DNA from: Gammaproteobacteria bacterium
GTDB lineage: Bacteria; Pseudomonadota; Gammaproteobacteria; Pseudomonadales; Ketobacteraceae
Reading direction: 5' to 3'
Assembly (NCBI GenBank): GCA_013178375.1
Contig: JABLXQ010000002.1
Span: 62,001-126,000 of the forward strand
Length of the DNA: 64,000 nt
Below, one piece after another: positions 58,074-64,000 of the stretch. Under the pieces are notes generated by a model. The model had not been told where the DNA came from, made no database searches, and was given only the letters and a program-made list of their open reading frames with translations. Within the stretch, counting starts at the first letter, position 1. Every line of letters begins with the position of its first letter. A program made the translations under genes and the position numbers.

Positions 58074-58102
58074 AAAAAAGGCGGGAATTTCCCGCCTTTT
58101 TT
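58074..58102. terminator. Bidirectional rho-independent terminator
   Basis: An A-run, GGCGGG, AATTT, CCCGCC and a run of six T between the convergent desaturase and fbp genes. The structure is symmetrical and can terminate both transcripts. Confidence 0.9.
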
Positions 58103-59909: not shown

Positions 59910-60362
59910 TCATTTCAGTTCAGAGGTGCAGTGAGGGCAGCGCGTTGCCTTGAGGGAAATGCTGGAATAGCAGAACGGGCAGTCCTTGGTGTTGGGTGCA
60001 GCCGGTTGGGTTCTCTGCAGCTTGTTGATGCCACTGATCAGCAGGAACACGGCGAAGGCCACGATCAGGAAGCTCACCACAGAGTTGATGAACAGGCCGT
60101 AACTCAAGGTCACGGCACCTGCCGACTGTGCCGCCGCGAGGGTGGCATAGGGGCCGGCGGTGGCGCCTTCTTTCAGGGTGATGAACAGATCGGAAAAATC
60201 CACTCCCCCCAGCACCAGGCCGATGGGCGGCATGATCACATCCGACACGAGGCTTTTCACGATGGTGCCGAACGCGCCGCCGATGATGATACCGACCGCC
60301 ATGTCCACCACGTTGCCGCGCATGGCAAATTGCTTGAATTCCTTCACTATGTTCCCCAGCAT
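59910..60362 (-). CDS. mscL: Large-conductance mechanosensitive channel with a C-terminal zinc ribbon
   Basis: This is a 150-residue inner-membrane channel that opens on hypo-osmotic shock. Typical N-terminal helix and TM1 ([27 protein letters not shown]) and TM2 ([20 protein letters not shown]) are present. The cytoplasmic tail is followed by a rubredoxin-like ribbon C-x2-C-x11-C-x2-C (CPFC, CPHC), absent from E. coli MscL. The HD-protein gene follows closely. Confidence 0.95.
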
Positions 60363-60549
60363 GGAATCGCTCCTCGTGATTGCTGCCCGTGATTGATAAA
60401 GAGTCCGATGTACCTGAACCGCAACCGGTTTTCCCAGGTGACAGCAATCATACTACCATCGCGTCATGCCAGCCGACAGCCGTGTATCCCGACCTGGATC
60501 AAGCCAGCCATCGTTTGGGGGAAGGGGGAGCGATCCGGCGCGGGCCCAC

Positions 60550-60580
60550 AAAAAAAGGCGGGAGGAAATCCCGCCTTTTT
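60550..60580. terminator. Rho-independent terminator downstream of the PEP-CTERM gene
   Basis: GGCGGGA at 60557-60563, a 5-nt loop, then TCCCGCC at 60569-60575, with an A-run upstream and five T downstream. Read on the minus strand it closes the PEP-CTERM transcript. Confidence 0.85.
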
Positions 60581-60602
60581 CCACTGCTTGCCAGACTGCG
60601 CA

Positions 60603-61148
60603 TCAGTGCGTGGTGCCAGCACTCATGCGGCGGGCCAGAACAAAACCCAGAATGCCAATGGCCAGCAACGACAGCACACCCGGTTCGGGCACTTCGGTTG
60701 TCGGTCCGTCGAATTGGGAGATGTGGCTCACCTTCTGGATGTTGGCTTCACGCCAGGTGAATCCCATCAGCGACAGATCGATGACCGCGTAGGCCAGATC
60801 AGCGATGTTCTGGAACAGGAAATGGGTGTCGTTCGTGCCTTTCAGCTTGCCGGTTTTTACCAGGAAATAATCCGTCGGGTCAGCCAGGTACTGGGCGTAA
60901 ACGTCCAGTGTTCCATCTACTTTTTCCCAATCGAATTCAGCGCCTTCCAGCTTGCCGCCAAATGTCACGTCCGAACCGAGGAAGGATTGAACCCACGCCA
61001 GTTCTTCCGCTTCGCCACTGTTATACAGCTTGGTGGACGACAGCAGGGAGTCAACTCCCCCGACCGTTGCCATGGGAATGGCGAAAGAGGTGGAGCTGGC
61101 CGCCAGCAGGATCGCGCACCCCAGCGCTTTTACATTGAACAGATTCAT
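60603..61148 (-). CDS. PEP-CTERM sorting-signal protein
   Basis: This is a 181-residue exported protein with signal peptide (MNLFNVKALGCAILLAASSTSFA). The last 26 residues are a classic PEP-CTERM tail: V-P-E-P, a hydrophobic stretch LSLLAIGILGFVLA, then RRM. Exosortase cuts at the tail and places the protein outside the cell, usually in an exopolysaccharide matrix. The body has no recognised domain. The ATG at 61148 is preferred over one 18 nt upstream because GGGGA precedes it. No exosortase gene is in the window. A sigma-54-like promoter lies upstream. Confidence 0.88.
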   Translation of the reverse strand: MNLFNVKALGCAILLAASSTSFAIPMATVGGVDSLLSSTKLYNSGEAEELAWVQSFLGSDVTFGGKLEGAEFDWEKVDGTLDVYAQYLADPTDYFLVKTGKLKGTNDTHFLFQNIADLAYAVIDLSLMGFTWREANIQKVSHISQFDGPTTEVPEPGVLSLLAIGILGFVLARRMSAGTTH

Positions 61149-61179
61149 CTCGGATCCCCAAGTCATCTCGCAGGATTAA

Positions 61180-61210
61180 TGTCAAATGACAACCTGACAG
61201 ACCTGTCAGG
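61180..61210. promoter_or_regulatory. Two tandem palindromes in the PEP-CTERM leader
   Basis: TGTCA-AA-TGACA at 61180-61191 and CCTGACAG-AC-CTGTCAGG at 61193-61210 share TGACA/TGTCA half-sites. They lie between the predicted sigma-54 start site and the coding start, so they may be repressor sites or RNA hairpins. Confidence 0.45.
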
Positions 61211-61222
61211 GCAGCTTCCATG

Positions 61223-61238
61223 AGCAAGGCCCGGGCCA
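61223..61238 (-). promoter_or_regulatory. Sigma-54 (RpoN)-type promoter of the PEP-CTERM gene
   Basis: Read on the minus strand: TGGCCCG-GGCC-TTGCT. The -24 GG and -12 GC dinucleotides are 10 bp apart, with one mismatch to TGGCACG-N4-TTGC. This fits the known RpoN dependence of PEP-CTERM genes controlled by PrsK/PrsR in other bacteria. Confidence 0.6.
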
Positions 61239-61342
61239 TCGGCTAAAAAGTGTTATGGCGCGGGGGCTTAAGGCAATGCGGAATTTGTTGCGGAGGGGAG
61301 ACTGTAAAGATGGCCGACAGCGCTGGTTTTGAGGTATCGGCG

Positions 61343-61389
61343 CCAAGCCGTTGATGTGTCAGCGGGATGCGTTCACATCAACGGCTTGG
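61343..61389. repeat. Perfect 16-bp inverted repeat upstream of the sigma-54 promoter
   Basis: The left arm at 61343-61358 begins CCAAGCCG and the right arm at 61374-61389 ends CGGCTTGG. The arms are exact complements with a 15-nt spacer. It lies about 105-150 bp upstream of the RpoN-like promoter, a normal enhancer distance, and about 47 nt after the stop of the upstream membrane-protein gene. No T-run follows in either direction. Confidence 0.75.
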
Positions 61390-61435
61390 TCAGGAGGTTC
61401 GCTGGTAGCGATGTGAAAAGAGACCCGACACAGGG

Positions 61436-63355
61436 TCAGGGCTTGTTGCCGGCGTCGTCATTCTGATTGTGGTTGCTGTCCTGGCGCAGAAATCCCGCTG
61501 CTTCCGCTGCAGAGTTGCCCAGCCGTTTCTGCTCATCGCCGGGGGCAATGGCGCGGGTCTGCTGATTCACCTGGGCGATTTTGGAGATGGCGTTTAATTC
61601 CTTTTCGTTCTGCAGCGACGCCACGGATTCCCGCTGCGACAAAAAGGCTTTCACTTCGCTGATCATGGCTTTCAGTTCGTCATCGTTTTTCTCGAACGAC
61701 CAGATCAGCCGTGCGTGCTCCAGATTGTCGACACCGGACAGGGCAAACGTGGACGAATGCAGGTTGGCGCAGATCACCCAGGGCGTCATGCTGGCGCGCA
61801 CCACCACATTTTCCGACCGGGTGCTGTCGTAGATGCTCATGCCGGTGGAGACTTTCGATTCTGTAAACGTGCCCTGGCAGCGGAAGAACACCATCAGCGA
61901 CTTGAATTTGATTTCCGCCCAGAAGGTGTGGGCGTAGTTTTCCAGAAGCCGGCCAAAGATGCTCAGCAGCAGGAAACCCAGCGCCAGTTTTGCCAGCAAC
62001 AGCAGGTTGTTGACGTGGGGCGCGATCATCTCGACCGCTTTCGGATTGGTGATGTTTTTCAGCAGGTCCACATCGGGCATGGTGAGTACGGCGTTGAGTG
62101 GCTTGATCGCAAAAAACAGCAGCAGGTAGGCGACAAACAGCAGCACCTGCGCGCTCACCGTGGACACCATGCGCAGCAGTTTGAACTGGTCCGGATATTC
62201 CCACGGGATGAATTCCGGCTGGGTTTCCTGAATGGTTTCGCCGTCGAACTGGCCCTTGTCGCTGGCGCGGCCTTCCTGCAGCAGGTTGGCGTCGAAATCC
62301 CGGTACACGCGGTTGGGCACCTCGCGGTAGCGGCGATTGGCCATCACGTTGCTTTCGATATTGATGAACACGTCCTGCGGGTGCACCAGTTCCTGCCAGC
62401 TTTCGCGGAATTCCGACACTTCTGTCACCGGGTTGGCCATGCGCGCCCGCTCCGCCACCAGCAGCAAAATCAGCACCGACACCAGCGTCGCCAGGATCAG
62501 CAGGCCGACAATAAAACCACCGGTGCTGAAACTGGTGAAATGGGTTTCCATCAGTGTCACCAGATTCTGGTAATTCTTGATTTTCGCGATGTAGGGCAGC
62601 CAGAGGATTTTATGCAGGAACACAAAAATCACCGGCGTGAGGATGGCCACCAGCAGCGCGATGGTCACCTGTTTCACGCTCATCTCGCCCCTGTAGCGGG
62701 AAATGTTCACGTCGCTGAGATTCACCGTGGCGCCGCGCCAGGCCAGGATCAGGTAAATCAGCAGGGCGAAGGAAACGGCCGTCAGCACCACGTCGGCATT
62801 TTTTCCCACCAGACCGGATGCCACCATGAACCAGCTCAGCACATAACAGATCAGTGCCACGGCGGTTTTCGCCAGCGCACCTGCCAGCTGGTCGGCGATG
62901 TTGCGCACGGGAAACGGGGTGAAGGTCAGGCGCGGAAAGAGGCTGTGCACCACGCGGGAGATCAGCCCGGTGGGTTCCTTGTAGGTGATGTTCTTGCGCC
63001 CCATCAGCATTTCTTCCAGCTGCTGGTGGTTGTAGTAGACGTGTTTTTCGACGTTCTGTTTTTCGGAGCGCGACACGTTTTTTGCCAGCGACGCTGGAAT
63101 GCTGCGGCCTACGTAAAAACGCACTATCTTGATGATGCCGCGTCCCAGCGCATACAGCCCGTTGGACAGCAGAATGAAGCCCACCAGCGCTGTGATCCAG
63201 CCCAGGGTGAAACTGCTGTTGATCAGCCCCGAGACCGATACCAGCAGGTACAGCGACAGCAGGGTCTGCAGCCCGCCCCGCGTTGCCACTACCACCCCTT
63301 CCAGTTTGAACGGGTTGCGTATCCCCAATCCTGTCGAGCCGTAATCAAAAGCCAT
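61436..63355 (-). CDS. Large multi-pass inner-membrane protein of unknown family
   Basis: This is a protein of about 639 residues from the ATG at 63355; an ATG at 63379 is an alternative. Hydrophobic segments occur in pairs: near 20-65, 165-215, 240-265 and 300-320, and again at 405-425 and 455-475. Between the last pair the protein has a soluble region. The C-terminal cytoplasmic part includes a helical segment and ends in a Gln/Asn-rich tail. I do not recognise the family; it shows no transporter signature. It may be associated with the PEP-CTERM gene downstream only by position. Confidence 0.75.
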   Translation of the reverse strand: MAFDYGSTGLGIRNPFKLEGVVVATRGGLQTLLSLYLLVSVSGLINSSFTLGWITALVGFILLSNGLYALGRGIIKIVRFYVGRSIPASLAKNVSRSEKQNVEKHVYYNHQQLEEMLMGRKNITYKEPTGLISRVVHSLFPRLTFTPFPVRNIADQLAGALAKTAVALICYVLSWFMVASGLVGKNADVVLTAVSFALLIYLILAWRGATVNLSDVNISRYRGEMSVKQVTIALLVAILTPVIFVFLHKILWLPYIAKIKNYQNLVTLMETHFTSFSTGGFIVGLLILATLVSVLILLLVAERARMANPVTEVSEFRESWQELVHPQDVFINIESNVMANRRYREVPNRVYRDFDANLLQEGRASDKGQFDGETIQETQPEFIPWEYPDQFKLLRMVSTVSAQVLLFVAYLLLFFAIKPLNAVLTMPDVDLLKNITNPKAVEMIAPHVNNLLLLAKLALGFLLLSIFGRLLENYAHTFWAEIKFKSLMVFFRCQGTFTESKVSTGMSIYDSTRSENVVVRASMTPWVICANLHSSTFALSGVDNLEHARLIWSFEKNDDELKAMISEVKAFLSQRESVASLQNEKELNAISKIAQVNQQTRAIAPGDEQKRLGNSAAEAAGFLRQDSNHNQNDDAGNKP

Positions 63356-63483
63356 GGCGCTACCTATGCGTGGTTCCATTTTTCCATTGCCGGCACCAGC
63401 ACTGCTGGCCATACCGGGCTGCGTGCCAGTGTACCCAAGGTGTCTGCAATAATCATCCGGCGGTGCTGACGTCGGGCCGGTGC

Positions 63484-63513
63484 GCGACACTCCTGTGGCT
63501 TTGCCGGTATATT
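63484..63513 (+). promoter_or_regulatory. Possible promoter of the ABC1-kinase gene
   Basis: GCGACA at 63484-63489 and TATATT at 63508-63513 are separated by 18 nt. The -10 is good and the -35 matches four of six bases. Confidence 0.35.
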
Positions 63514-63588
63514 GTCGCGGCCGCGTAAGCCATCCGTGTAAGCCCCTATGGCCACGCACTGGAATTTCCCGTGGCACAGGAGTGCAGC

Positions 63589-64000
63589 ATGCAGGACGAC
63601 ACCGACAGGAAATCACTGCGCAAGCGCAGCTGGAATACTACCAAGCTGGCAGCCCGGTTGGGCTTTGCTGCCGCGACCAGGGCCATTGGGCTGGAGTTGC
63701 CGCAGTCGAACGAGCAGGCGGTTGCCAAAGCGGTGGCGCTGGTCAACCAGTTCGATGGCATGAAGGGGCTCATGCTCAAGTTCGGCCAGATGGGCAGCTA
63801 CCTGAATACGGGCTTGCCGCCCGAAGCGCAAAAGATTCTGGCCAGTTTGCAGTCCGCAGCGACGGCGATGCCCTACGCTGCCGTGGCGGGCCAGATTGAA
63901 TCCAGCCTGGGTGCGCCGGTGAGCGAACTGTTCGAGCAATTTGAAACCGACGCCTTTGCGGCTGCCTCCATTGGCCAGGTGCATCGCGCCCAGCTGCGCA
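63589..64000 (+). CDS. ABC1/UbiB-family atypical kinase, partial at window end
   Basis: The first 137 residues of a protein that continues beyond the window. AGGAG lies 6 nt before the ATG. LMLKFGQMGSYLNTGLPPEA is the KxGQ motif region, and AFAAASIGQVHRAQLR is the Ala-rich nucleotide loop, both diagnostic of the ABC1/ADCK/UbiB atypical kinases. Such proteins support ubiquinone synthesis or related lipid functions. The downstream catalytic motifs are not visible, so it cannot be told whether this is UbiB itself or a paralogue such as AarF-domain kinases of other roles. Confidence 0.85.
   Translation, partial: MQDDTDRKSLRKRSWNTTKLAARLGFAAATRAIGLELPQSNEQAVAKAVALVNQFDGMKGLMLKFGQMGSYLNTGLPPEAQKILASLQSAATAMPYAAVAGQIESSLGAPVSELFEQFETDAFAAASIGQVHRAQLR

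Follow-up and report, generated by a model that had tools for sequence, protein, structure and literature searches.

A perfect inverted repeat between a membrane-protein gene and a PEP-CTERM gene, most likely a 3′ hairpin next to a sigma-54 unit of a type already described

The locus and its inverted repeat

The window, as we will call the whole 64,000-nucleotide stretch of DNA that was analysed, carries on its minus strand a membrane-protein gene followed by a gene for a PEP-CTERM protein (Table 1). At E 0.001, neither Pfam nor NCBIfam yields a family for the membrane-protein ORF. The PEP-CTERM gene passes the Pfam cut-off (22.7 versus 20.7 bits), and its protein is matched in 30 of 293 genomes. 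In a congener, fbp (fructose-bisphosphatase) follows about 40 nt after the membrane gene, so that the two are adjacent, whereas in the window the segment 58124-61436, which holds the PEP-CTERM gene, mscL, and a small gene with no family assigned from Pfam or NCBIfam, lies between them.

Between the membrane-protein gene and the PEP-CTERM gene lies an inverted repeat. A repeat search recovered two arms of 16 nt, 100% complementary and 15 nt apart, as an earlier note on this DNA had described. The same note had judged the repeat too long to be due to chance, and the shuffles agree: among the perfect inverted repeats of the window (loops of 3-40) no other is as long, and in 20 Markov shuffles of the window the longest perfect inverted repeat never exceeded 12 bp. 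Folded as minus-strand RNA, the 47-nt repeat reaches -29.8 kcal/mol (z -9.0), and it gives a stable hairpin on both strands. The lack of a T-run, also noted earlier, applies to both flanks; the repeat is followed by CGCCGATACC on the minus strand and by TCAGGAGGTT on the plus strand, neither of which qualifies as a U-tract. The window hairpins at 60552-60580 and 58074-58102, by comparison, do have A/T runs. The repeat begins 46 nt beyond the co-oriented stop of the membrane-protein gene at 61436, and it lies 105-151 bp upstream of the -24/-12 element of the PEP-CTERM gene, essentially the 105-150 bp given before.

Table 1. Features between and around the membrane-protein and PEP-CTERM genes (positions in the window)
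Feature	Position	Strand	Remarks
PEP-CTERM protein gene	60603-61166	minus	likelier ATG at 61148 (by eye)
Sigma-54 promoter -24/-12 (motif 2)	61223-61238	minus	TGGCCCGGGCCTTGCT; 64 nt after motif 1
C-rich, G-poor 70 nt	61244-61313	minus	lies 3′ of the repeat and overlaps motif 1; C minus G = 21; candidate site for Rho loading
PEP-CTERM box motif 1, predicted PrsR site	61303-61319	minus	TGTCGGCCATCTTTACA; exact match
Perfect inverted repeat	61343-61389	minus	arms 61343-61358 and 61374-61389, 16 bp; loop 15 nt; read as a probable 3′-end RNA hairpin
Second motif-1-like box (probable)	61414-61430	minus	TGTCGGGTCTCTTTTCA; a single mismatch; 24 nt past the repeat and 111 bp upstream of motif 1
Weak terminator-like hairpin	61424-61440	minus	6 pairs, TCTCTTTTCA tail; at the membrane-gene stop; overlaps the second box
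Membrane-protein ORF	61436-63616	minus	GTG start in the ORF list, real start probably further in; ends 46 nt before the repeat

The PEP-CTERM box and the sigma-54 promoter

The earlier note had placed an RpoN-like promoter ahead of the PEP-CTERM gene, and this assignment holds: the minus-strand sequence at 61223-61238 matches 11 of the 12 scored sigma-54 positions, and the promoter is real. It had also proposed that the repeat itself is the site of the activator. The predicted PrsR box, however, is another and published element, the 17-bp motif at 61303-61319, and, judged from the sequence, the enhancer reading is attached to the wrong stretch of DNA. In the account of Haft et al. (2006), motif 1 of the PEP-CTERM box is 17 nt long, ends in TTTACA, is sometimes repeated, is predicted to bind PrsR, and is separated from the -24/-12 element by a spacer of 62.8 nt on average, with a range of 32-92 nt (PMC1569441). 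The window resembles this PEP-CTERM box of Proteobacteria in its motif 1 ending in TTTACA, its 64-nt spacer, which falls within the published range, its -24/-12 element, the presence of PrsK and PrsR in the genome, and the occasional repetition of motif 1 described there. It differs in that the inverted repeat is an extra element, absent from the published description in the parts available to us. In a 2023 paper, an RpoN1-dependent pepA promoter was mapped, and a predicted enhancer was noted upstream of it (PMC9850573).

The same arrangement recurs among PEP-CTERM loci. Ten loci were read (that of the window, those of seven homologues, and two further PEP-CTERM loci), and they share a recurring 17-mer, TGTC-N7-TTTACA. 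When up to one mismatch is allowed, a script recovers it at each of the ten, 51-74 nt ahead of a -24/-12-like site. At locus L059, the 17-mer and the -24/-12 pair lie more than 300 bp from the start codon. Within the window's own genome, where 13 PEP-CTERM genes are over the cut-off, 4 of the 12 that were checked carry the pair. On a rough motif model built from 29 of 30 composite loci, the main box of the window scores 16.6, which is the top score in the window yet low relative to the sites used for building (12.3-32.3, median 27.6). The box pattern is also found in this genome on the minus strand between a transporter-like and a PhoH-like ORF, both named by eye (L207:3149-3243, or G000:C25:12648-12742), and there the downstream gene is absent from the genome's list of PEP-CTERM genes.

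Across genomes, the box and promoter pattern parallels the occurrence of PrsR. When PrsR is called by TIGR02915 at E 1e-130 or better, it is present in 97 of 293 genomes and the pattern in 120; the pattern is found in 88 of the 97 genomes with PrsR versus 32 of the 196 without (Fisher p ~1e-36, with kinship among the genomes ignored), whereas a reversed-pattern control is found in 16 and 18 of these, respectively. The exact pattern is absent from nine PrsR genomes. Five genomes (G094, G125, G194, G222, and G258) have at least two box patterns and no PrsR at the threshold, for which either incomplete assemblies or a different activator could account. In the window's own genome, PrsR (TIGR02915, 696 bits) and PrsK (TIGR02916, 624.6 bits) both score over the cut-off and are encoded side by side with a sub-cut-off PrsT-like protein, near exopolysaccharide genes, in keeping with the earlier suggestion of PrsR as a fitting sigma-54 activator.

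A second motif-1-like box lies on the other side of the repeat and starts 5 nt past the membrane-gene stop. For sites as good as this one, the expectation in this genome is 0.006 per 280 bp of a single strand. One homologue locus (L060) has an exact box 109 bp upstream of its proximal box, versus 111 bp in the window, and the 31 nt around that distal box align to the window at 77%, including 13 identical nt (E 0.012, in a tiny search). A second copy of motif 1 is found within 450 bp at six of nine relatives' PEP-CTERM loci. On the motif model the second box reaches 11.1, behind three unrelated sites of the window. Second boxes are not a general rule, as none of the 30 composite loci has one 20-300 bp upstream, where 1.8 would be expected by chance; these loci were unselected for PEP-CTERM genes, and 9 of the 30 genomes are without PrsR. 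We consider the second box in the window probably real. Because it aligns with the exact box of L060 at nearly equal spacing, the gap between the two genes is probably PEP-CTERM control DNA, and because it begins so close to the membrane-gene stop, the gap 3′ of that gene may have been acquired together with the PEP-CTERM gene. The whole gap may thus be part of the PEP-CTERM control region rather than of the membrane gene. The repeat arms were considered as motif-1 sites themselves and rejected, since neither holds motif 1 at up to one mismatch.

The repeat as a probable 3′ hairpin of the membrane-protein transcript

What, then, is the repeat? The earlier note had offered, as its alternative, a 3′ hairpin of the membrane-protein gene, and it is this alternative that we come to favour, although only at about even strength against all other readings together. 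On this reading the membrane-protein transcript would be terminated by Rho and then trimmed, and the repeat would form the hairpin, devoid of a U-tract, at its 3′ end. A long stable stem 46 nt past a stop codon is what one expects of an intrinsic terminator; here, however, there is no T-run on either strand, and because the hairpin lacks a U-tract we do not read an intrinsic terminator at the repeat. Exonuclease processing of Rho-dependent ends back to a hairpin has been described (PMC7815308, where it is credited to Dar and Sorek, 2018), and ends sensitive to bicyclomycin have been described as consisting of a hairpin without a strong U-tract, followed by C-rich, G-poor sequence, and as being trimmed to the hairpin (PMC13289151). 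The window shares with such ends the stable hairpin after the stop, the missing U-tract, the C-rich, G-poor sequence downstream, and a rho gene in the genome (TIGR00767, 716.8 bits); it differs in its 15-nt loop and in being a case known from sequence alone. The genome has, in addition, a second, partial Rho-like match of 356.1 bits, below the cut-off, in a 332-codon frame (G000:C3:33544-34395).

By analogy with these U-tract-less ends, minus-strand transcription of the membrane gene would run beyond its stop, and the 16-bp RNA hairpin would form 46 nt after it. Rho would load on the C-rich, G-poor RNA past the hairpin, and transcription would end further down. Exonucleases acting 3′ to 5′ would then trim the RNA back to the hairpin, which would protect the mRNA. 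The PEP-CTERM gene would form a separate unit, in which PrsR, bound to motif 1 and in all probability to the 61414-61430 box as well, would activate sigma-54 polymerase at 61223-61238. The composition of the putative loading site is uncommon: on the minus strand of the window a C minus G of 21 is reached in three places, and of 959 ORF stops called mechanically, 3.1% have a 70-nt stretch with this value in the next 270 nt.

Several observations weigh against the 3′ hairpin. An intrinsic terminator candidate, the weak hairpin at 61424-61440, precedes the repeat and could be a rival, earlier end for the membrane-gene transcript; terminator-like sites number 8 in 3 kb, versus 3.2 expected. The stretch of C over G overlaps motif 1. 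The congener has its membrane gene without a hairpin, as judged by eye, before fbp, and in the window the second box starts so near the stop that the gap may belong to the PEP-CTERM gene's control region. Nor does the 3′ hairpin account for the position of the repeat midway between the two boxes.

Long repeats elsewhere in the genome provide a broader setting. We sampled the window and 60 further stretches (1.263 Mb, 20% of the genome) for repeats with a mismatch-tolerant score of at least 13 and found 25; a single shuffled version of these bases gave none. A run of four T/A stands at an end of 13 of them, and 12 of the 13 are located no more than 100 nt past an ORF stop. Among the 12 without such a run, five lie inside called ORFs and seven are intergenic, the sorting being rough in that the stem of one ORF-internal member (L155) contains an A-run. 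All seven intergenic repeats, the focal one included, fall into the 100 nt that follow an ORF stop, a zone that covers 56% of intergenic positions (p ~0.02), which is modest support for the 3′ hairpin. A C>G stretch follows only two of the seven, which speaks against it, and the combination of hairpin and C>G stretch was accordingly rejected as a rule for the class. Relatives were compared for two of the six other members. At L146:3530-3577, a 17-bp perfect repeat with a 14-nt loop and no T-run between convergent ORFs, the three long-match relatives have different hairpins, with U-runs, directly behind that gene, in favour of the 3′ hairpin; at L187:3564-3613, the one long-match relative, the congener, has no hairpin at the site, which counts against it. 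A T-less repeat at L137:9892-9934 has arms, GGCTGTTGAAAAAC, that we take to recall insertion-sequence ends.

Alternative readings and the distribution of the repeat

The repeat could also act as DNA, with a dimeric regulator on the two arms tuning the sigma-54 promoter, perhaps between two PrsR boxes. We consider this unlikely, even though several observations favour it. The arm centres are 31 bp apart, or about three helical turns; the -24/-12 element is 105-151 bp away; and the repeat sits midway between the two boxes, 23 and 24 nt from them, with centres 55 and 56 bp off. The similar box spacing in L060, with the gap as probable control DNA, points the same way, as does an excess of arm hits in the genome, 127 at up to three mismatches versus 61 for the reversed pattern. 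Against these points, there is no other genomic copy of the arm at up to one mismatch, and there are eight at two mismatches. When 30 of the 127 hit loci were read, two were the repeat itself, and none of the 28 others has an inverted partner beside the hit, 27 of them lying inside open frames of at least 247 codons. In up to 700 bp of DNA upstream of the 12 other PEP-CTERM genes, the only repeat of at least 10 bp has 10 bp and a 58-nt loop, so that among the 13 genes over the cut-off a longer one is found solely at the window gene. Inverted-repeat arms of at least 10 occur at none of the seven homologue loci, and between the boxes of six two-box relatives the best repeat is no better than in shuffles (17-80 of 100 as good), whereas for the window none of 100 shuffles is as good. 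The check that the earlier note had proposed, for arm copies in front of other PEP-CTERM genes, thus yielded none among those examined. We therefore reject the idea that PEP-CTERM genes have the repeat in common, the arms being unique and absent from the other PEP-CTERM genes examined, the homologues, and the two-box relatives, which is a further point for the 3′ hairpin. A REP-type dispersed palindrome is likewise rejected, there being one copy only.

When 60560-61700 was searched as DNA against 145 genomes, the window's own included, the hits were the region itself, the end of the congener's membrane gene, and 51 bp within an ORF that is unrelated. Nine Shewanella contigs (L116-L121, L123, L124, and L127) share a hairpin, AAGCCGTTGATG-N8-CATCAACGGCTT and then T, which is terminator-like and has the core stem of the window repeat; the core is also present in three contigs from other phyla.

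The uniqueness of the arms, the absence of the gap from the congener, and the relatives without a repeat between their boxes would also suit a repeat without function, a recent inverted duplication within the gap, whose perfect arms suggest youth. To this we assign a probability as low as to the DNA site, as the long repeats that were sampled mostly sit just after genes and the C>G stretch after the window repeat is uncommon. Quite improbable, in our estimate, is a two-box enhancer in which a protein on the arms, or a DNA hairpin, joins the PrsR sites or holds them apart; the repeat could then be a lineage-specific addition to a two-box spacing found in at least one homologue (L060). Least of all do we expect the hairpin to be part of a small RNA released by cleavage of the membrane-protein mRNA near its 3′ end: it is stable on both strands, but 60300-61700 contains no Rfam family at the gathering score, 60000-63000 has no sigma-70-like site, and the hairpin lacks the U-tract that is usual in small RNAs bound by Hfq.

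Returning to the 3′ hairpin as the preferred reading, two signals that had been merged when the sequence was first read can now be separated, the published sigma-54/PrsR unit on the one hand and the repeat on the other. The PEP-CTERM box with its sigma-54 unit has already been described; for the repeat, a 3′ hairpin is the likeliest reading. Should such U-tract-less hairpins often take the place of ordinary terminators in this lineage, they would escape any terminator finder that demands a U-tract.
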